This document shows, one piece after another, positions 12,989 to 21,489 of a stretch of 64,000 nucleotides of DNA. The DNA lies in the NCBI RefSeq assembly GCF_000482545.1, contig NZ_KI519455.1, positions 372,001 through 436,000 of the forward strand, in the 5' to 3' direction. The DNA is from Arthrobacter sp. 35W. Lineage in GTDB: Bacteria; Actinomycetota; Actinomycetes; Actinomycetales; Micrococcaceae. Within the stretch, counting starts at the first letter, position 1; every line of letters starts with the position of its first letter. The position numbers and the translations under genes are program-made. The notes under the pieces were generated by a model, which did no database searches, had not been told where the DNA came from, and saw only the letters and a list, made by a program, of their open reading frames with translations.

Positions 12989-13624
12989 ATGGACACTTTC
13001 ACCGGAATCCCCGCCGCAGCCATGGCCTTCTACGCCGAGCTGGAGGAGAACAACAACAGGGAGTGGTGGCTGGAGCACAAGGATGTGTACGACGGCGCCG
13101 TGCGGGGGCCTCTGGAGACCCTGTTTGCCGGGCTGGAGCCGGAGTTCGGCCCCGCGAAGATCTTCCGCCCCAACCGCGACATCCGCTTTTCAGCCGACAA
13201 GTCCCCCTACAAGACGGCCCAGGGCGCGTTCGCCGCGAACCACGAGGGATTGGGCTACTACCTGCAGATCAGTGCCGATGGCCTATTGGTGGGTGCCGGC
13301 TGCCACTCGTACTCCCCCGCCCAGCTGGCCCGCTACCGCTCCGCCGTCGACGCCCCGGTCAGCGGCGTCGAACTGGCCGACGTCGTCGACGCCGTGGCGC
13401 AGGCCGGTTTCAGGATCGAGGGCGAAATGCTCAAGACCGTCCCCCGCGGCTTCGACAAGGAGCACCCGCGGGCGGAACTGCTCAAGCACAAATCCCTCTC
13501 CGCTGCCGTGATGCTCGGCCAACCCGGCTGGATGGACAGCCCCGCCGCCCAGGGGGAAGTTGCAGCGCTCTGGACCCAATTGCGCCCCCTGGTCGAGTGG
13601 ATGGCCGCGCACGCCGCCCCTTAA
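12989..13624 (+). CDS. DUF2461 family protein (TIGR02453-like)
   Basis: The 211-residue cytoplasmic protein has the family features: an N-terminal FYAELEENNNREWW segment, PNRDIRFSADKSPYKT in the first half, and the YYLQISADGLLVGAGCHSYSP strand pair. C-terminal VPRGFDKEHPRAELLKHKS also fits. The family is widespread and has no established biochemical function. The ATG at 12989 begins just at the conserved N-terminus. The 3' end of the coding sequence runs into the first copy of the 67-bp palindromic repeat, and its last bases are duplicated near the second copy at 21.4 kb. It stands alone, convergent with the levan fructotransferase gene. Confidence 0.88.
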   Translation: MDTFTGIPAAAMAFYAELEENNNREWWLEHKDVYDGAVRGPLETLFAGLEPEFGPAKIFRPNRDIRFSADKSPYKTAQGAFAANHEGLGYYLQISADGLLVGAGCHSYSPAQLARYRSAVDAPVSGVELADVVDAVAQAGFRIEGEMLKTVPRGFDKEHPRAELLKHKSLSAAVMLGQPGWMDSPAAQGEVAALWTQLRPLVEWMAAHAAP

Positions 13625-13625
13625 C

Positions 13626-13692
13626 CCCAACTGGGTGACACTTATGACACATTCCGAGGCCCGGATCGTGCGATAACTGTCACCCAGTTGGG
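13626..13692. repeat. 67-bp palindromic intergenic repeat, copy 1
   Basis: Two 25-nt arms (13626-13650 and 13668-13692) match at 22 of 25 paired positions around a 17-nt centre. The outer core is CCCAACTGGGTGACA. It lies between convergent genes (DUF2461 and levan fructotransferase), so it could end transcription from both sides. Three more copies with the same 25-17-25 layout are at 21415, 29732 and 53021. Confidence 0.9.
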
Positions 13693-13707
13693 CACAGAGC
13701 TGGGCTG

Positions 13708-15267
13708 CTAGCTGGGGGTGCCGAACTCGCGGATGGTGATTCCGGTGAAGGTGGCGGGGCCGCCATCGGTGTAGAAGGAGATCCCGGTGTCGCCGTCGGC
13801 GAAATGCACTTGCTGCGAAAGAACTGTGTGACCGGCGTTCACGAACACCTCGACGCTCTGCGTATCGACAAAGATGCGCAGGTGGACCGATCGTGCGTTG
13901 GCGTCGATGGGCGCGGCAGCACGCGTGTAGGGCACGAGCGAGAAGCCGCTCTGGTTCGACGGCGCGCGGTCGACGTACAGCTCGTTTCCATACTTGCCGA
14001 TGTTTGTGTGGCGGGAACCGTCCCAGGACCGGCCGACCGAGACGCCGACGTTCGCCGCTGTGTCCCACGAGACGTCGAACTCGAGCTCGTAGGCGCGCCC
14101 GGTCCACGGAAGCAACGAGCTTCCCGAGACGGTGCGGTCTGGGATCGTGGTGGCTGCGGTGGCGTATCCCGCGAGCGCCGGGACCGGAGTGCTGAGCAGG
14201 CCGTACCGGCCGCCAGGCTGGGACTCGAGCCGCAGTTCCCGCACGATGGAGTTCTGCCCGTTGTACCCGTCGGATGCATCGGTGGGTACGTCGCGGGCTG
14301 CATACTTCCAGTTGTTCATCCATGCGATGGCGAGGCGCTTTGTCTCTGGCGCTTCGTGCGACGGCCACGTCACGGCCGCGTACCAGTCCCATCCCCAGTC
14401 GAGCCACTGCGGTGTGAGGTCACCGGCGGTGAACGTGGTGCCGTTCCAGGAACCCATCCAATAGGCGTAGGTCATCGGCAGGTCGACGCTGTAGGCATCC
14501 ATGCTCGCCCCGAACACCCAGTGCCGCGTGCCATCGCCAGCGGTCATCTCGAACAGATCTGGGCATTCAATTCCGCCAAGAGCATGGTTCGGGTAGTCAA
14601 AATTGGATTTCCACTGCCAATCCAGCAGGTTCGGCGAGGTGTAGAAGGCCGCGTAGCGTGCCCGTCCAATCACGCACACCCATTCGCCGCGTGCCGCGTC
14701 CCAGTGGATCTTGGGGTCGCGGAACCACTCTGCGTTTTCAATCTCGGCGGCTGTCGTGGCCGTGCGACCGTCGGTGTTGATGATCACCGGGTCGGCCAGG
14801 GCTGTGAAGGTGGAGCCACCGTCGGTCGACCAGTAGAGGTACTGCTCTTGATATTTGCGGATCCCATCGGTCGGCTGGGTCGCGAGTGCGACCACCGCCC
14901 CGGCACCGAAGCCGGCAGTGTTGGCGGTGTCGACGACGGCGGACCCCGACCACACCGGGAAGTCGGGCTGCAGGGGCATCACTACGCCGTGGTGCGTGTA
15001 GGCCACCCCGTCTGTGGTCGTCGCGTGGTCCCAGCCGCCCTGGCCGTTGTTCTGCCCGGAGTGCAGGTAATAGAGCTGATAGGCGCCGTTGGTGTACACC
15101 GGACGCTGCGGGTCGCACAGCCAGCCGGAGGGTGGGGTCATGTGGTAGACCGCCCGAAGGGAGGTCTGGGCGTGCGCGGCAATGGGCACCGCGCCGCCCA
15201 TGAAAAGGGCAAGTGCCCCGGCTCCTGCCCCGTGCAGGACAGTGCGTCGCGAGATCTCGTAGGTCAT
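13708..15267 (-). CDS. lftA: Secreted levan fructotransferase, GH32 (difructose anhydride IV-forming)
   Basis: The 519-residue precursor has a Tat-type signal (SRRTVL at 6-11, cleavage probably after AHA at 33). The mature protein starts with a five-bladed GH32 domain and ends with a beta-sandwich. The nucleophile is Asp52 in GWLCDPQRP, a variant of the usual WMNDPNG; RDP is at 183-185 and the acid/base Glu234 is in ECPD. From memory the sequence closely resembles Arthrobacter ureafaciens levan fructotransferase (EC 4.2.2.16), which converts beta-2,6-fructan to difructose anhydride IV by intramolecular transfer. A levanase or levanbiohydrolase is the main alternative. The ATG at 15267 has GAGAGGAAA upstream. 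It is divergent from the GH32/ABC/LacI operon and shares its operators. Confidence 0.88.
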   Translation of the reverse strand: MTYEISRRTVLHGAGAGALALFMGGAVPIAAHAQTSLRAVYHMTPPSGWLCDPQRPVYTNGAYQLYYLHSGQNNGQGGWDHATTTDGVAYTHHGVVMPLQPDFPVWSGSAVVDTANTAGFGAGAVVALATQPTDGIRKYQEQYLYWSTDGGSTFTALADPVIINTDGRTATTAAEIENAEWFRDPKIHWDAARGEWVCVIGRARYAAFYTSPNLLDWQWKSNFDYPNHALGGIECPDLFEMTAGDGTRHWVFGASMDAYSVDLPMTYAYWMGSWNGTTFTAGDLTPQWLDWGWDWYAAVTWPSHEAPETKRLAIAWMNNWKYAARDVPTDASDGYNGQNSIVRELRLESQPGGRYGLLSTPVPALAGYATAATTIPDRTVSGSSLLPWTGRAYELEFDVSWDTAANVGVSVGRSWDGSRHTNIGKYGNELYVDRAPSNQSGFSLVPYTRAAAPIDANARSVHLRIFVDTQSVEVFVNAGHTVLSQQVHFADGDTGISFYTDGGPATFTGITIREFGTPS

Positions 15268-15441
15268 GAAGTGGTTTCCTCTCAAGCATTCGGCGGTGAT
15301 GGAGGCACATTGACGGGAAATGGCATCGACAAGGTTTTGCAGCCAACGCCGCACTTTTTCCCGGGTGAAGAACACGAACCGATGATCACGGCCATGCCGT
15401 GCCGCGCTGTCCAAGCTCGCAGCGGCTCATCGGTACACAGG

Positions 15442-15471
15442 ACGATAATGCGACTTCCTCGCTGTGGTCAA
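15442..15471 (-). promoter_or_regulatory. Predicted lftA promoter
   Basis: Reading the minus strand, TTGACC (15471-15466) and TATCGT (15447-15442) are separated by 18 bp. The -35 box lies inside operator O1, so a bound LacI protein would block RNA polymerase. Confidence 0.6.
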
Positions 15472-15481
15472 GCGTTTAATC
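15466..15481. promoter_or_regulatory. LacI-type operator O1 (levan locus)
   Basis: GGTCAAGCGTTTAATC has the central CG at 15473-15474 and is an imperfect palindrome. It matches O2 and O3 in reverse orientation and covers the -35 box of the lftA promoter. Confidence 0.72.
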
Positions 15482-15566
15482 ACCCGACACCTGATGTGGA
15501 CCCCAAGGGAGCGGTGCACCCCTAACGCTTTTCTGGAGCGGTCCCCGGGAACGGAAAACAAACTTT

Positions 15567-15582
15567 GCTAAAACGCTTGACC
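15567..15582. promoter_or_regulatory. LacI-type operator O2 (levan locus)
   Basis: GCTAAAACGCTTGACC has its CG centre at 15574-15575. It overlaps the -35 box (TTGACC) of the promoter reading into the GH32/ABC operon. Confidence 0.75.
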
Positions 15583-15605
15583 AGTTGTGTGACGCACGAT
15601 ACTTT
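15577..15605 (+). promoter_or_regulatory. Predicted promoter of the GH32/ABC operon
   Basis: TTGACC (15577-15582) and TACTTT (15600-15605) are separated by 17 bp, giving a start near 15612 and a leader of about 36 nt. It is bracketed by operators O2 and O3. Confidence 0.68.
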
Positions 15606-15612
15606 TAGATCC

Positions 15613-15628
15613 GATCAAACGTTTTAGC
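15613..15628. promoter_or_regulatory. LacI-type operator O3 (levan locus)
   Basis: GATCAAACGTTTTAGC has its CG centre at 15620-15621, 46 bp from O2. It begins at the predicted transcription start, an ideal repression site. Confidence 0.75.
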
Positions 15629-15647
15629 AGAATGGACACCAGAGCCG

Positions 15648-17084
15648 ATGAACCGCTCAGTTTTCTTCCAACCCGCAGACAGCTGGGTTGGAGACCTCAT
15701 CCCCTTCGAGAAGGACGGTGAGTTCTGGCTTTTCTACCTCCACGAGGTCCGCAGCGACCCCAAGCCGGGCACCTCATGGAATCTCGTCACAACAAAGGAC
15801 CTTGTCAGGTTTGAGGACCAGGGTGTTGCCCTGCACCATGGCTCCGAGAGTGATGCCGATTTCAACGCGTACACGGGCAGCATCGTGTGCGACCAGGACG
15901 GCATCCACCGCCTGTTCTACACGGGACAGAACCCGCAGCACCTCGGCTCCGACGGGGCGCCGCTGCAGCTAGTCATGCAGGCCACCAGCACCGACGGAAT
16001 GCAGACCTGGGTCAAGCACCCGGAACTGACCTTCGGTGCGCCGGCAGGCTACGAGTCCGGCGACTGGCGGGACCCCTTCGTCTTCCGCGATGAGGAGGCC
16101 GGACTGTGGCGGATGCTGCTGGCCGCACGGCACGCAGCGGGCCCAGACCGCCGCCGCGGCGTCATTGCCCAGTGCGTTTCCACCGACCTGGAGACCTGGG
16201 TGCACACCGAACCATTCTGGGATCCGCGGCGGTACATCACCCACGAATGCCCGGACGTGTTCGCCTGGGGCGACTGGTGGTACCTCGTCTACTCGGAGTT
16301 CTCGGAATCCTTCACCACCCGCTACCGAATGGCCAAAAGCCCCACCGGACCGTGGACGGTGCCCGAACGTGACAGCGTCGATGGGCGCGCCTTCTACGCC
16401 TCAAAGACGGCCGAACGGGATGGCCGCCGGTTCTTCTTTGGCTGGATCGCCAGCAAAGAGGAAAACCAGGACGACGGCGCCTGGCAATGGGCCGGAACGA
16501 TGTCCGTTCTGGAAGCACGCCAGAATCCCGACGGAACACTGGCCTTCGCCTTGGCGGAGGAACTGGTTGAGAGCTTCTGGGAGGAAATCCCTGCAACGTT
16601 TGGCCGCAGCCTCCCGGCAACGATGGATGTTCCGGACGGGTACTCGTCCCTTGTCTCCGAGGAGGTCCTGCCCTCGCAGTTCTACGCCAAGACGGTTCTG
16701 CAGATCGGCGCTGGCACCACGGAATGCGGCCTGCTGCTGCGCTCCAGCGCCGACGGAGACGAGTCCTACGTCATCCGTCTGGAACCCAAGCGCGGCCGCA
16801 TGGTTTTCGACAGGTGGCCTCGGAAAGCCACCGGCGACGCGCAGTGGAACGTCTCCGGCGACGTACCGTTTGAGATCGAACTCGAGCGCCCATGCGACCT
16901 CGGCCCCGGCGAACACACCCTCGAAGTCGTCGTCGACGGCGATCTCTGTGTCGCCGTCGTGGACCGCCAGGTGGCACTGAGCACCCGCATCTACGACCGG
17001 CCTCAGGGCCGGATCGGAGTCTTCGTCGGGGAAGGCTCAGCCACCATCACAGACCTTGAAATACGCAAGCGCACCGACAACTAA
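15648..17084 (+). CDS. Cytosolic GH32 family glycosidase, candidate difructose-anhydride or fructo-oligosaccharide hydrolase
   Basis: The 478-residue protein has no signal peptide. Its N-terminal part is a GH32 five-bladed domain: nucleophile Asp16 in WVGDLIPF (in place of WMNDPNG), RDP at 141-143, acid/base Glu200 in HECPD. A C-terminal beta-sandwich starts near 340. The family cleaves beta-fructosides with retention; it resembles the FosGH2/Aec43-type branch found in fructo-oligosaccharide loci, though I cannot confirm the subfamily. It is the first gene of an operon with a sugar ABC importer and LacI regulator and is co-regulated with lftA. I infer that it opens imported difructose anhydride IV or levan oligomers. 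The divergent nucleophile loop suggests an unusual substrate. Confidence 0.85.
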   Translation: MNRSVFFQPADSWVGDLIPFEKDGEFWLFYLHEVRSDPKPGTSWNLVTTKDLVRFEDQGVALHHGSESDADFNAYTGSIVCDQDGIHRLFYTGQNPQHLGSDGAPLQLVMQATSTDGMQTWVKHPELTFGAPAGYESGDWRDPFVFRDEEAGLWRMLLAARHAAGPDRRRGVIAQCVSTDLETWVHTEPFWDPRRYITHECPDVFAWGDWWYLVYSEFSESFTTRYRMAKSPTGPWTVPERDSVDGRAFYASKTAERDGRRFFFGWIASKEENQDDGAWQWAGTMSVLEARQNPDGTLAFALAEELVESFWEEIPATFGRSLPATMDVPDGYSSLVSEEVLPSQFYAKTVLQIGAGTTECGLLLRSSADGDESYVIRLEPKRGRMVFDRWPRKATGDAQWNVSGDVPFEIELERPCDLGPGEHTLEVVVDGDLCVAVVDRQVALSTRIYDRPQGRIGVFVGEGSATITDLEIRKRTDN

Positions 17085-17128
17085 ACACCTGCACCCATAT
17101 TCCGTTCCAATCGAAGGAGATTGACCCC

Positions 17129-18463
17129 ATGATGAAAATGATCCGAACGGCCGCTGTGGCAGCGGCCACGGTCCTCGCCCTGGCCGCCTGTGGCGGCGGC
17201 GGGTCCGCCAGCTCGTCCAATGTGAACCCCACCGGCGAAATCAAGCCGCGCGAGATTTCATGGCTGCTGTCCCGCCCCGCTGACGGCGCGGTGATCAACA
17301 TCATGAAGCAGATCGCTGCTGACTACGCCAAGGACCACCCCGGCTTCGAACTGAATCTGATCACCACCCCGGACCGGCCCTCCTACATCCAAAAGCTGGA
17401 GACGTTGGCCGCGGCGAACAAGCTCCCTGAACTCTTTGATACGGATGCGACGCCGTACGCCCAGCAGCTGGCAAAGCAGGGCAAGATGGTGGACGCCGAG
17501 AAGCTCCTGAAGGACCTTGGCGTCTACGACAACTACCGGTCCAACGCGCTGGACTACCAGCGCTTTGATGACGGGTCCCTGTACATGATCCCGTTCCAGT
17601 TTGAGCTGGAGTTCGTCTGGTACAACAAGAAGCTGTTGCAGCAGGCCGGCGTCGCCGCTCCGACGTCGCTGGATGACATCCCGGCGATGTGCACGTCCCT
17701 GCGCAATGCCGGCATCACGCCGATCGCCCTCAATGGGCAGGACCAGTGGCCCCTGGAGCGGTACATGGCCTACCAGCCGTTCCGAGCTGCCGGACCGGAC
17801 TTCATCCAGAAGCTGAAGAGGGGCGAGGCAAAGTTCTCCGACCCGGCGGGCCAGAAGGCTGTGGAGTGGATGGCCGCGCTGGGCAAGGCCAAGTGCTTCC
17901 AGGATGGATTCTCCTCCCAGGGCTACTCAGATGCCCAGAACCTGTTCACGTCCGGCAAGGCGGCCATGTACAACATCGGCACCTGGGAGCTCCCCAGCCT
18001 GGCGACCGACAAGCTCAACCCGACGGTCCGCGATGATGTCGACTTCTTCACCCTCCCCACCACCCAGGGCTCCGTCACCGCCGCCAACGAGTACGTCTCC
18101 CCCTCCGGCATCGGCATGGCGGTGAATGCCAAGACGTACGACCCCCTCGTCAGCGATTTCCTGAAGTTCGCCCTGAAGAAGTACCCCGCGGCCTATGCAG
18201 CCACCGGCGCTCTCTCGCCGACGGTCGATGCACAGACCGAGATCCCGGCGAATGCCTCCCCCCTGTTCACGAAGGCCCTCGACCAGGCCAAGGATCTGGG
18301 CGGCCAGCAAGCCATGCCATGGGACACCCAGCTCGACCCGACGACCAACGGCCGGCTGCAGCAGGAGCTCGTGCTCCTTGTCCAGGGCGACATCACACCC
18401 GAGGAGTTCACCACCACGATGGACAAGACCATCGCGCAGAACGCCCCGAAGTTCTTCAAATAG
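17129..18463 (+). CDS. Sugar ABC transporter substrate-binding lipoprotein
   Basis: The 444-residue protein has a lipoprotein signal with lipobox LAAC (Cys21) followed by a Gly/Ser linker. The rest fits family 1 solute-binding proteins (PTGEIKPREISWLLSRPADG, TDATPYAQQLAKQGKMVDAE, SGKAAMYNIGTWELP). It is anchored outside the membrane and delivers a sugar to the two downstream permeases. The ATG at 17129 follows AAGGAG; a second in-frame ATG is next to it. The gap to the GH32 gene is 44 bp. No ATPase gene is present in the operon, so it probably uses a shared MsiK-type ATPase, as is common in actinobacteria. The ligand is probably difructose anhydride IV or a levan oligosaccharide. Confidence 0.92.
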   Translation: MMKMIRTAAVAAATVLALAACGGGGSASSSNVNPTGEIKPREISWLLSRPADGAVINIMKQIAADYAKDHPGFELNLITTPDRPSYIQKLETLAAANKLPELFDTDATPYAQQLAKQGKMVDAEKLLKDLGVYDNYRSNALDYQRFDDGSLYMIPFQFELEFVWYNKKLLQQAGVAAPTSLDDIPAMCTSLRNAGITPIALNGQDQWPLERYMAYQPFRAAGPDFIQKLKRGEAKFSDPAGQKAVEWMAALGKAKCFQDGFSSQGYSDAQNLFTSGKAAMYNIGTWELPSLATDKLNPTVRDDVDFFTLPTTQGSVTAANEYVSPSGIGMAVNAKTYDPLVSDFLKFALKKYPAAYAATGALSPTVDAQTEIPANASPLFTKALDQAKDLGGQQAMPWDTQLDPTTNGRLQQELVLLVQGDITPEEFTTTMDKTIAQNAPKFFK

Positions 18464-18509
18464 CCACAATGGTGGGGGCTCCGGCCCCCACCACCGGAAA
18501 GGCCCTCCC

Positions 18510-19391
18510 ATGCTTCCCAACAGGTCACGACTATCTGTTCTGATCTTCCTGCTTCCACCGCTGCTGCTCTACGGCGCAGCCGTGCTGTTCCCCATCCTCC
18601 AGTCCCTGTTCCTCAGCTTCTTTTCCTGGAACGGCATCAGCGACATGGAATTCGTTGGCCTCGCCAACTACGCCCGGATGCTCTTCGGCGACGACGTCTT
18701 CTGGCGTTCCTTCTTCAACGCGCTCGGCTATCTGGCCATCTGCCTGGTGCTGCAGCTGGGCGGTGCCCTGCTCGTCGCCAGCCTCCTCGCCTCGCTGCGC
18801 CGCGGCCGCGAAGTCGTCAAAACCCTCTACCTGCTGCCGGCCGTGATCTCCACTGTGGCCATCGCGTTCCTGTTCGTGCGCATCTACTCCATTGACCCTG
18901 TGGGGCTGCTCAACCAGCTCCTGGACTGGATCGGCCTGGGTGGGTTGGAACGGGCCTGGCTGTCCGACGTCAACACGGTCCTGGCTGCGGTGTCGATCCC
19001 GGAAGGCTGGCGGTTCACCGGCCTGTACATGCTCATCATCTACGCGGCCCTGCTCTCCGTCCCCCAGGAACTGGAGGAGGCAGCCCGCCTCGACGGGGCC
19101 TCGCGGTGGCAGGTCTTCACCAAGATCCGCTTCCCCCACATCATGCCTGTCTGGATCACCACCACCATCATGGCCACCACCTACGGTCTGCGCGGATTCG
19201 ACATTCCCTACCTCATGACCAATGGCGGGCCCGGACAATCCTCGGAGCTGTTGACCACTTACATGTACAAGACGGCCTTCACCAGCACCGACTTTGGCTA
19301 CGCCAGCACCATCTCGGTCTTCATCGTCGTCGAGTGCCTCGTCGCCGTCGGACTCATCCTCTTCATGCTCAAACGAAAGGCGGACGCATGA
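18510..19391 (+). CDS. Sugar ABC transporter permease, MalF-like
   Basis: The 293-residue protein has six predicted TM segments. The cytoplasmic EAA loop, which docks the ATPase, reads EEAARLDGASRWQVFTKIRFPHIMP near 190. The frame is open far upstream, but the ATG at 18510 (MLPNRSRLSVLIFLLPP) fits the family start and follows GGAAAGG. It comes 46 bp after the binding-protein gene and overlaps the next permease by 4 bp (ATGA), indicating translational coupling. It forms the channel with the second permease. Confidence 0.93.
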   Translation: MLPNRSRLSVLIFLLPPLLLYGAAVLFPILQSLFLSFFSWNGISDMEFVGLANYARMLFGDDVFWRSFFNALGYLAICLVLQLGGALLVASLLASLRRGREVVKTLYLLPAVISTVAIAFLFVRIYSIDPVGLLNQLLDWIGLGGLERAWLSDVNTVLAAVSIPEGWRFTGLYMLIIYAALLSVPQELEEAARLDGASRWQVFTKIRFPHIMPVWITTTIMATTYGLRGFDIPYLMTNGGPGQSSELLTTYMYKTAFTSTDFGYASTISVFIVVECLVAVGLILFMLKRKADA

Positions 19392-20290
19392 CCGCGCAAG
19401 CAGCCCCGACCACCCGGCGCGCCACCACCCCGACGGAGAGCGGCCCGCCCTTGCGCCGGCGCCGCAAGGCGACGTTCTCCGCCACCCTGACACGGGTCTT
19501 GATAGCCCTCATTGTCATCGTCCAGGTCTACCCGCTCGCCTGGCTTTTCATCACCAGCCTGCGCACCGAACACGATTTCGCCACCGGGGATCCGTTCGCC
19601 CTGCCCAAGGCAATCACGCTCGACAACTACGTACGTGCCTTCGAGACTGGCAATCTGGGGCAGAACATCCTCAACAGCTTCATCGTGACCATGGGCGCGA
19701 ACCTGCTCATCGTGCTCCTGGGCATGATGGCCGCCTACGCACTCCAAGTCCTCGGGTTCCGATTCAGCAAGTTTGTCCGCGGACTGTTCCTCATTGGCAT
19801 CATCGTTCCGGTGCAGATCGCCCTCGTCCCGCTGTTCATCGACTACTCGGCAGTGAACATGCTCGACACCTACCAATCGATGATCATCCCGTTGGCCGGA
19901 TTCGCTCTGCCGATGTCGATCTACCTCTTCTCCTCATTCTTCGAGTACATTCCGCGTGAAACGTATGAGGCTGCCTCCTTGGACGGTGCCGGCCCGTACC
20001 GGATCTTCGGCCTGGTGACGCTGCCGCTGTCCATCAACACGATCGTCACCGTCGTCCTGGTCAACAGCATCTTCATCTGGAACGACTTCATCTTCGCCAA
20101 CACCTTTGTCCTTTCGGAGGATCTCAAGACGATTCCGCTGGGGCTGCAGAACTACATCGGTGCCATGGGCAAGACGGACTGGACGGCCACGTTTGCCGCC
20201 GTCTGCGTCACGATCACCCCGCTGCTGCTGGTTTTCCTTGTGCTGAACAAGGCGATGATCCAGGGTCTGGAGAGCGGGGCAAACAAGTAA
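19388..20290 (+). CDS. Sugar ABC transporter permease, MalG-like
   Basis: The 300-residue protein has a basic N-terminal tail, then about six TM segments from residue 30. The EAA loop reads YEAASLDGAGPYRIFGLVTLPL near 200. The ATG at 19388 overlaps the previous stop (ATGA). The C-terminus (NKAMIQGLESGANK) is typical of MalG-like permeases, where the last residues contact the ATPase. With the preceding permease it makes the importer channel of the levan locus. Its stop overlaps by one base an ATG of the following LacI frame. Confidence 0.93.
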   Translation: MTAQAAPTTRRATTPTESGPPLRRRRKATFSATLTRVLIALIVIVQVYPLAWLFITSLRTEHDFATGDPFALPKAITLDNYVRAFETGNLGQNILNSFIVTMGANLLIVLLGMMAAYALQVLGFRFSKFVRGLFLIGIIVPVQIALVPLFIDYSAVNMLDTYQSMIIPLAGFALPMSIYLFSSFFEYIPRETYEAASLDGAGPYRIFGLVTLPLSINTIVTVVLVNSIFIWNDFIFANTFVLSEDLKTIPLGLQNYIGAMGKTDWTATFAAVCVTITPLLLVFLVLNKAMIQGLESGANK

Positions 20291-20331
20291 TGGCCTCGAT
20301 AACAGACGGATATACTCCTGAGGGAGGGAAG

Positions 20332-21393
20332 ATGAATTCGATGGAGAATGATCCGGGCACGCCTATGGCTGCGGCCGCATCCACAGTGCAGCCCGCGCGC
20401 GCCCATCCCGTCACCCTGCGGCAGGTCGCGGAAGCCGCCGGCGTCTCCACGGCCACCGTCTCCCTCATTGTCAACAAGAAAAAGGGCGCCCGAATCGCCG
20501 CTGACACCCGCAACCGGGTGCGGGACGCCATCCGGGACCTGGGCTACCGGCCCAATGCCATGGCCCAGACCCTTGTCAGCGGCAGCTCCAGGTTCATCGG
20601 GTTGGTTGCCGATGCCATCGCCACCACCCCCTTCGCCGGCCAGATCATCCATGGCGCCCAGGATGAGGCGTGGAAACACGGATACGCCCTCCTGATCGCC
20701 AACACCGAGGGCAATGGCGAGTTGGAAACGGACGCCATCGCCATGATGCTCGAATACAAGGTGCGCGGCATCCTCTACTCAACCTGGTTCCACCGTGCCA
20801 CAGCTGTCCCCGCCTCTTTGCGCGAGTCGGACTTCGTCTTGGTGAACTGCTTCTCAACGGAGCCCGATGCACGTGCCGTGATCCCGGATGAAGTCCAGGG
20901 CGGCCGGTCAGCCACGGACATCCTGCTCCGCAACGGCCACCGCCGGATCGCCTTCATCAATGCCACGACGCCGGCGCCCGCCAAGGACGGACGCCTGCAG
21001 GGATACAGGGAGGCTTTGGAAGCGGAGGGAATTCCGTTTGACGAGTCCCTGGTGCTCGAGGCCTACCCCGACCAGGAAGGCGGATACGGGGCAACCGAAG
21101 AGCTTCTGAAGCGCGGCGTCACCGCTGTGTACTGCTACAACGACCGAATGGCGATGGGCCTCTACGATGGCCTGCGTGAGAACGGCCTGTCCATCCCGGG
21201 CGACATGGCCGTGGTGGGCTTTGACAACCAGGAAGTCATTGCCGCGCACCTGCGCCCCCCACTGTCGACGGTCTCGCTGCCCCACTACGAACTGGGCGCC
21301 GCGGGCGTGAGGATGCTGCTGGGTCTGGACGAATCCCCGGCCGACACCGCAGTGAAGGTGCACTGCCCCCCTGTGGAGCGCAGCTCCGTATAG
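20332..21393 (+). CDS. LacI family repressor of the levan locus
   Basis: The 353-residue protein has an N-terminal extension of about 25 residues. The LacI HTH follows (TLRQVAEAAGVSTATVSLIVN) with its hinge helix, then the periplasmic-binding-protein-like effector domain (FIGLVADAIATTPFAGQIIHG to the C-terminus). The ATG at 20332 follows GAGGGAGGG closely. An ATG at 20290 overlapping the permease stop would add 14 residues and is the alternative. It is the last gene of the operon, so it probably represses its own operon through O2/O3 and lftA through O1. The effector is probably difructose anhydride IV or a fructose derivative, which is inference from context. Confidence 0.9.
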   Translation: MNSMENDPGTPMAAAASTVQPARAHPVTLRQVAEAAGVSTATVSLIVNKKKGARIAADTRNRVRDAIRDLGYRPNAMAQTLVSGSSRFIGLVADAIATTPFAGQIIHGAQDEAWKHGYALLIANTEGNGELETDAIAMMLEYKVRGILYSTWFHRATAVPASLRESDFVLVNCFSTEPDARAVIPDEVQGGRSATDILLRNGHRRIAFINATTPAPAKDGRLQGYREALEAEGIPFDESLVLEAYPDQEGGYGATEELLKRGVTAVYCYNDRMAMGLYDGLRENGLSIPGDMAVVGFDNQEVIAAHLRPPLSTVSLPHYELGAAGVRMLLGLDESPADTAVKVHCPPVERSSV

Positions 21394-21414
21394 GGCATGC
21401 ACGCCGCCCCTTAA

Positions 21415-21481
21415 CCCAAGTAGGTGACAGCTATCGCACACTCCGAGGCTCGGAACGTGCGATAACTGTCACCCAGTTGGG
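21415..21481. repeat. 67-bp palindromic intergenic repeat, copy 2
   Basis: Arms 21415-21439 and 21457-21481 match at 22 of 25 paired positions around a 17-nt centre that is itself nearly palindromic (TCCGAGGCTCGGA). It separates the convergent LacI and APC permease genes. The 19 bp ending at 21417 (GCACGCCGCCCCTTAACCC) are identical to the 3' end and flank of the DUF2461 gene at 13609-13627. Confidence 0.9.
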
Positions 21482-21489
21482 CCGGAAGG

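Follow-up and report, generated by a model that had tools for sequence, protein, structure and literature searches.

A levan fructotransferase gene and its co-regulated uptake operon in Arthrobacter sp. 35W: a candidate route for the use of difructose anhydride IV

Reports that levan is converted enzymatically to difructose anhydride IV (DFA IV) date from the early 1980s (cited in PMC6245366), and the compound has been studied as a functional sweetener (PMC6828762). The papers examined describe three-stage routes for DFA III and DFA I, but for DFA IV they cover its formation only (PMC8605356, PMC11538131). The DFA III route consists of an extracellular GH91 fructotransferase, uptake, and an intracellular GH91 DFA-IIIase with a GH32 enzyme (Arthrobacter; Blautia, PMC11538131), and GH172 is the family of the DFA I synthase/hydrolase (PMC8605356). 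No DFA IV import system or hydrolase was found among the literature matches listed, a coverage that, for this and for the described routes alike, leaves out most subscription journals. Here, we analysed a stretch of 64,000 nucleotides of Arthrobacter sp. 35W (the window; C2:372001-436000 of the 4.66-Mb genome). At positions 13708-21393 it holds lftA, a gene for a secreted levan fructotransferase (LFT), divergent from an operon for a GH32 enzyme (GH32c), a solute-binding protein (SBP), two permeases of an ATP-binding cassette (ABC) importer and a LacI-family regulator, with three operators between the two units (Table 1). The best-supported reading, which we infer from the sequence, is that DFA IV is taken up and would then be opened by the cytosolic GH32c.

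The initial annotation had described an LFT gene divergent from such an operon, and all six genes were found in the order it gave. Pfam assigned the six proteins to GH32/GH43, SBP, permease and LacI-type families only, and the scan detected no GH91 and no GH172 protein among them. At the gene level, the predicted products match the three-stage layout of DFA use, comprising a secreted ring-closing enzyme, an importer and a cytosolic glycosidase under shared operators.

The lftA protein is identical to the Arthrobacter ureafaciens LFT (4FFF) at 401 of 478 residues (84%) without gaps. This enzyme of known structure was matched in the PDB search with an E value of 1.7e-286, and the next solved relative, the endolevanase LevB1, followed far behind. 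The GH32 triad is present, with D52 aligning with the residue mutated in 4FFH (D54N), and the FRDP and ECPD motifs are identical in the two proteins. Given the match to the A. ureafaciens enzyme, the product of lftA from levan is very likely DFA IV. The ATG start is preceded by GAGAGGAAA, and SRRTVL near the N-terminus is presumably a twin-arginine translocation (Tat) signal, which it resembles. On plasmid pTCL of Curtobacterium sp. TC1, tatA and tatC adjoin an LFT homologue (L107 155-11467), as if the export route travelled with its cargo.

GH32c scored above the curated cut-offs of PF00251 (108.3 bits) and PF08244 (28.2 bits), and it also passed that of the GH43 family (PF04616, 34.7 versus 32.2). 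No signal peptide was apparent by eye. The catalytic residues are D16, D142 and E200 by alignment, and the Asp nucleophile, the Asp of RDP and the Glu acid/base are kept in 68/68 orthologues. In GH32 enzymes, the Asn of the NDPNG motif and a conserved Gln bind fructose at subsite -1 (PMC7833758). These fructose-binding residues of exo-acting enzymes are replaced by Gly (G15) and Leu (L31) in all 68 orthologues of GH32c. The nearest solved relative by both sequence and fold was the endo-levanase BT1760, with LevB1 (9h8i) ranking under BT1760 and LFT in the fold list. Since the pocket Asn and Gln are gone throughout and both sequence and fold favour BT1760, a plain exo-fructosidase was rejected for GH32c. 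LFT and endo-levanases as a class place an O6-linked fructose at subsite -1.

A similar pocket has been described for three gut GH32 enzymes of butyrate producers, termed 'cluster 4', in which the Asn is changed to Gly, the Gln is kept or is Leu, the NDPNG motif is missing and a resemblance to GH43 is seen (PMC7833758). In cell extracts these enzymes were inactive on sucrose, kestose, nystose, arabinan, inulin and levan, a negative outcome that can also mean inactive protein, and two of the three adjoin ABC transporters; their authors propose, as one possibility, substrates yet unknown (PMC7833758). GH32c carries the same signature, with Gly at the Asn53 site, Leu at the Gln70 site, and the Asp, Ser, Arg, Asp and Glu kept; this likeness is one of residue signature (PMC7833758, Table 3), with the Trp78 and Met81 sites outside the comparison.

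The occurrence of LFT and GH32c was compared in a family and an order sample, in both of which the best three to five first-look candidates per genome were scored. Among 295 family genomes, 15 carry LFT (at least 55% identity) and 18 carry GH32c (at least 56%), the latter being present in 15/15 LFT genomes versus 3/280 others (Fisher p = 1e-22, which, like the next value, overstates independence because the genomes are related). Ten more family genomes have just a LevB1-like endolevanase (42-45%, E 1e-100), and none of the ten has GH32c (p = 3e-7 against the 15/15). In the 396 order genomes, LFT (at least 65%) was found in seven, all of which carry GH32c (at least 52%), as do 11/389 others; seven order genomes with just a 43-46% enzyme, three of them also in the family set, have no GH32c at E 1e-60. 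The coupling of LFT to the operon looks functional.

The two units also appear to share their control. The three intergenic sites show zero mismatches to TGMTWAAACGYTTGAYCR because the motif was derived from them, and it is therefore the comparative test that counts; the rest of the genome holds no further site with fewer than two mismatches, and the next-best one has two. Of 46 loci whose GH32c has 70% identity or more, 45 carry a pair of sites near positions -82 and -36 relative to the GH32c start (two genomes are counted twice among the 46, and the regular expression found one site in the remaining locus, L103). The third operator is present on the LFT side in 21/21 of these loci with a divergent LFT. 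An upstream LFT in the same orientation as the operon (L058/L083, L069) has its own operator site(s), as does a 55% homologue in L064. Where LFT comes last, after LacI (L052-L054, L059-L063), there is no operator within 400 bp of LFT, so that it may be read together with the operon. In the distant loci L199-L206 and L107, neither GH32c nor LFT has this motif nearby. The TTGACC -35 hexamers of both promoters lie inside operators; the lftA promoter was found by a scan (one found versus a mean of 0.1 in shuffles), and the GH32-side promoter, which the scan did not call, was read by eye.

A search with at most one mismatch in 23 genomes returned sites in 22. All were upstream of GH32c, except for those at three unlinked LFT homologues (G300, G302 and, split, G311) and one palindrome in G308:C26. 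Given that operators stand upstream of exactly these three homologues, the regulator appears to follow LFT around the genome. Co-occurrence, trans operators and kept operator spacing rule out a chance neighbourhood. The shared operators of the initial annotation are thus borne out, their positions being kept in relatives, and its uptake operon under shared control is strongly supported by conservation and the trans operators.

Table 1. Genes and regulatory elements of the module, in window coordinates.
Feature	Position	Strand	Basis
lftA, secreted levan fructotransferase (GH32), 519 aa	13708..15267	-	identity to 4FFF, PDB search, Pfam GH32N/GH32C
sigma-70-like lftA promoter, TTGACC-N18-TATCGT, -35 within O3	15442..15471	-	consensus match only
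LacI-type operator O3, lftA side	15465..15482	-	TGMTWAAACGYTTGAYCR match
LacI-type operator O1, contains TTGACC -35 of GH32 operon	15566..15583	+	TGMTWAAACGYTTGAYCR match; ~-82 of GH32 start in relatives
LacI-type operator O2, downstream of proposed GH32-operon promoter	15612..15629	-	TGMTWAAACGYTTGAYCR match; ~-36 of GH32 start in relatives
GH32c, cytosolic GH32, candidate DFA IV ring-opening hydrolase	15648..17084	+	Pfam, alignment, fold relatives
lipoprotein SBP, ABC sugar importer	17129..18463	+	SBP_bac_1
ABC permease A	18510..19391	+	BPD_transp_1
ABC permease B	19388..20290	+	BPD_transp_1
LacI-family regulator, last gene of operon	20290..21393	+	Pfam LacI

The module contains no ATPase gene, no kinase gene and no plain exo-GH32. 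Since these parts lie outside it, the claim of a complete module, with the whole pathway in about 8 kb, was too strong; the secreted LFT, the uptake operon and the co-control are the parts of that interpretation that stand. The genome has one strong MalK-type ATPase match, unlinked (C2:1832321), and actinobacteria commonly share one MsiK-type ATPase. The likely exo-GH32 finisher, with no signal peptide apparent, is on another contig (C1:1276052), and in all three further GH32/GH43-like genes lie outside the module. The SBP lipobox, read by eye, we take to be LAAC; the best solved relatives of the protein include xylo- and chitin-oligosaccharide binders and indicate no ligand.

In some other genomes the likely finishing enzymes stand nearby. 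A GH32c orthologue is present in 14 of the 18 order-level stretches fetched, and the operon regions of these 14 include an exo-GH32 with the Asn and Gln in seven, a carbohydrate kinase in five and LFT in four. In the same-family loci L052-L054, LacI and LFT are separated by an exo-GH32 gene. The pTCL plasmid combines in one locus the LFT homologue (69%), TatA, TatC, a kinase, an exo-type GH32, an importer, LacI and GH32c (51%). Its permeases and LacI are just 27-35% alike to those of the module, and GH32c and LFT appear to stay together when the transporter is swapped. The GH32 adjoining a LevB-like enzyme is of the exo type in 7/11 loci and of the GH32c type in 0/11. Considering the two-enzyme pattern in the operons versus the exo type beside LevB-like enzymes, the distribution fits a scheme in which GH32c would do a step that the exo enzyme cannot and the exo enzyme would finish.

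Two further gene arrangements were seen. On plasmid pCR1A of the Firmicute Enterococcus gilvus (L108 7998-15983), a full ABC importer is encoded together with an enzyme resembling GH32c (38%), an exo-type GH32 and a ROK-family protein, and no LFT was seen in this stretch. In L207 and L208, a 57% LFT homologue and another importer are found with a second GH32/GH43-like type (WxWDxW motif, with Leu in the Gln position), and a gene similar to this second type lies elsewhere in the Arthrobacter sp. 35W genome (C1:1565387, L004).

We propose, with a probability of about 0.6, that LFT makes DFA IV, the ABC system imports it and GH32c opens its ring. Secreted LFT would cut difructose units from levan and close each into DFA IV, which the lipoprotein and the two permeases would import with a MalK-type ATPase encoded elsewhere. 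In the cytosol, the endo-levanase-like GH32c would open the ring by breaking one of its two beta-2,6 bonds, yielding levanbiose. With no Asn and Gln in its -1 pocket to hold a terminal fructose, the enzyme could accept a fructose with a substituted O6, and in DFA IV both fructoses are of this kind. The later steps to fructose phosphate would fall to a kinase and a separate exo-GH32, which are absent from the module here but belong to the operon in some other families. LacI would repress both transcription units via the one operator set, and the inducer would probably be DFA IV or a derivative.

Several observations weigh against this proposal. BT1760, which shares the Gly and Leu, degrades levan with levanbiose left over (PMC6560043), and by this analogy GH32c could act on linear oligosaccharides. 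LFT is adjacent (80-87% identity) in 18 of 38 named GH32c loci and absent from the examined stretch in the other 20. Twelve more order genomes without LFT have weaker GH32c relatives (33-39%), and three order genomes with a 55-57% LFT homologue have no GH32c at E 1e-60; in the two of these three loci that were fetched, the homologue adjoins another importer and another type of GH32/GH43-like protein. GH32c and the endolevanase-like enzyme are not mutually exclusive: G309, G310 and G313 have GH32c and a 44-45% endolevanase-like enzyme but no LFT, and G177 has all three. Other GH32 genes in 16 of the 17 genomes without an LFT homologue above 45% could feed the importer, which in LFT-less strains may serve other diets. 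The scoring of three to five candidates per genome, the restriction of the 'cluster 4' likeness to a residue signature, and the alternative suggestion of the 'cluster 4' authors that their enzymes are not GH32 (PMC7833758) count on the same side.

The main alternative, which we consider unlikely but a serious competitor, is that GH32c is a cytosolic levan-oligosaccharide hydrolase of the BT1760 type and that the importer takes linear beta-2,6 oligosaccharides from LFT or other levanases, with DFA IV opened by another enzyme or unused. BT1760, the nearest solved relative, cuts levantriose and longer chains, and operon genomes without LFT mostly have other GH32 genes, in three of them a 44-45% endolevanase-like one. 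However, the operon tracks LFT in the family and order samples, where endolevanase-like enzymes occur without it, and operators with at most one mismatch accompany LFT genes, whereas the other GH32 places in the LFT-less genomes have none. Enzymes with the same residue signature also left levan undegraded in extracts (PMC7833758), and an ordinary exo-GH32 should suffice for linear oligosaccharides. It is distinctly less probable that GH32c cleaves just free levanbiose or sucrose-like sugars while ring opening falls to LFT running backwards or to a second enzyme encoded elsewhere. In principle, a retaining transfer reaction can run both ways, and the three further GH32/GH43-like genes of the genome could supply such an enzyme; yet the replacement of the exo-type Asn and Gln in every orthologue speaks against this role, and the exo-GH32 found next to GH32c in several loci would leave both enzymes with the same task. 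It is very improbable that the importer and GH32c act on some unrelated furanoside and have only their regulator in common with LFT, since, although the SBP relatives point to no ligand and 11 order genomes carry GH32c without LFT, all LFT genomes of both samples carry GH32c (15/15 and 7/7) and the operators follow LFT when it is unlinked.

The strains that carry the operon without LFT were considered separately. In the genomes of the 20 LFT-less loci, no LFT of more than 56% identity turned up in a search at E 1e-20: a 55-56% homologue lies elsewhere in three of them (the G300, G302 and split G311 genes), 16 have only GH32 matches of at most 45%, and one has none. The GH32c tree had 68 rows and two outgroups; it excluded L058 and L065, which share their contigs with L083 and L086, and L102, whose genes look broken. 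Mapping the label 'LFT' onto this tree takes 13 changes, of which well-supported branches force at least 11. Alignment A1 comprised 20 of the 38 named loci and the window. The median pairwise ratios of nonsynonymous to synonymous substitution (dN/dS) of GH32c, SBP, permease A and LacI were 0.060-0.108 for the LFT-less group (15 of its 20 loci) and 0.059-0.106 for 10 loci with LFT (permease B was left out; 13/105 LacI pairs were beyond the dS limits or failed, with LFT-less LacI up to 1.5). Operon decay in LFT-less strains was rejected as a general rule, dN/dS being equally low. In the LFT-less Arthrobacter sp. SPG23, two short open reading frames (ORFs) stand in the place of permease A (L086 12870-13747), apparently a split gene.

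The third operator, at the would-be LFT promoter, is kept in five LFT-less loci (L081, L090, L099, L104 and, missed by the regular expression, L086), which suggests that LFT was lost there in the past. Strains that have the operon and lack LFT probably scavenge DFA IV that their neighbours produce, and a public product usable just by operon carriers would favour LFT-less operons. The scavenger idea is directly testable, LFT-less carriers being public strains such as Arthrobacter globiformis NBRC 12137 and A. pascens DSM 20545.

The analysis names one candidate gene for each missing step of DFA IV use. A testable substrate is also offered for a GH32 group described as having unknown substrates (PMC7833758). 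More tentatively, and with the odds somewhat against the whole of it, GH32c might be the first intracellular DFA IV hydrolase and might give the orphan GH32 group without NDPNG, gut members included, a substrate class in difructose anhydrides or their difructoses, with LFT and the importer privatising levan as a sugar closed to neighbours that lack the pair, and with LFT-less scavengers arising repeatedly that retain just the importer and the ring opener.

Ten ORFs of the window outside the module were scanned, and none showed an evident link to it; they include catalase-like, PerR/Fur-like, TIGR02453, amino-acid permease and flavoprotein-like proteins, the others having no or negligible matches. 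Gene clusters were counted with a codon-usage gene caller and not from all ORFs, since antisense ORFs in GC-rich DNA cluster too and make such counts unusable. Palindromic repeats, 84% alike, lie just beyond both module ends (13618-13693 and 21407-21482). They were rejected as module-specific ends, belonging to a genome-wide palindromic family with at least 73 matches on both strands (40 of 70 candidates scored).

Compared with A. ureafaciens LftA (EC 4.2.2.16, GH32, PDB 4FFF-4FFI), the lftA protein has the same catalytic motifs and showed no essential difference at the sequence level. BT1760 (GH32, PDB 6R3R/6R3U) is a cell-surface enzyme that cuts polymeric levan (PMC6560043), whereas GH32c is apparently cytosolic and encoded beside an importer. 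With 'cluster 4' GH32c shares the Gly and Leu sites, the missing NDPNG motif, the link to GH43 and, for two of the three gut enzymes, the ABC transporter neighbours (PMC7833758). The proposal has the intracellular opening of a difructose dianhydride in common with the DFA I pathway and its GH172 alpha-fructofuranosidase (PMC8605356); however, GH172 acts on alpha-fructofuranosyl bonds, DFA IV is all beta, and the module has no GH172 protein. A distant GH32c relative (33-38%) was seen close to a GH172 gene on pACHL02 of Pseudarthrobacter chlorophenolicus A6 (L106 3730-13428) and beside one in G514 (L210 8774-11264). The DFA III pathway differs in that the module is concerned with levan and beta-2,6 bonds, that the ring maker and the proposed opener are both GH32, and that no GH91 is found among the six proteins. 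The two would follow a common three-stage logic, in which the ring is closed outside the cell, imported and opened inside, and the difructose is then hydrolysed.

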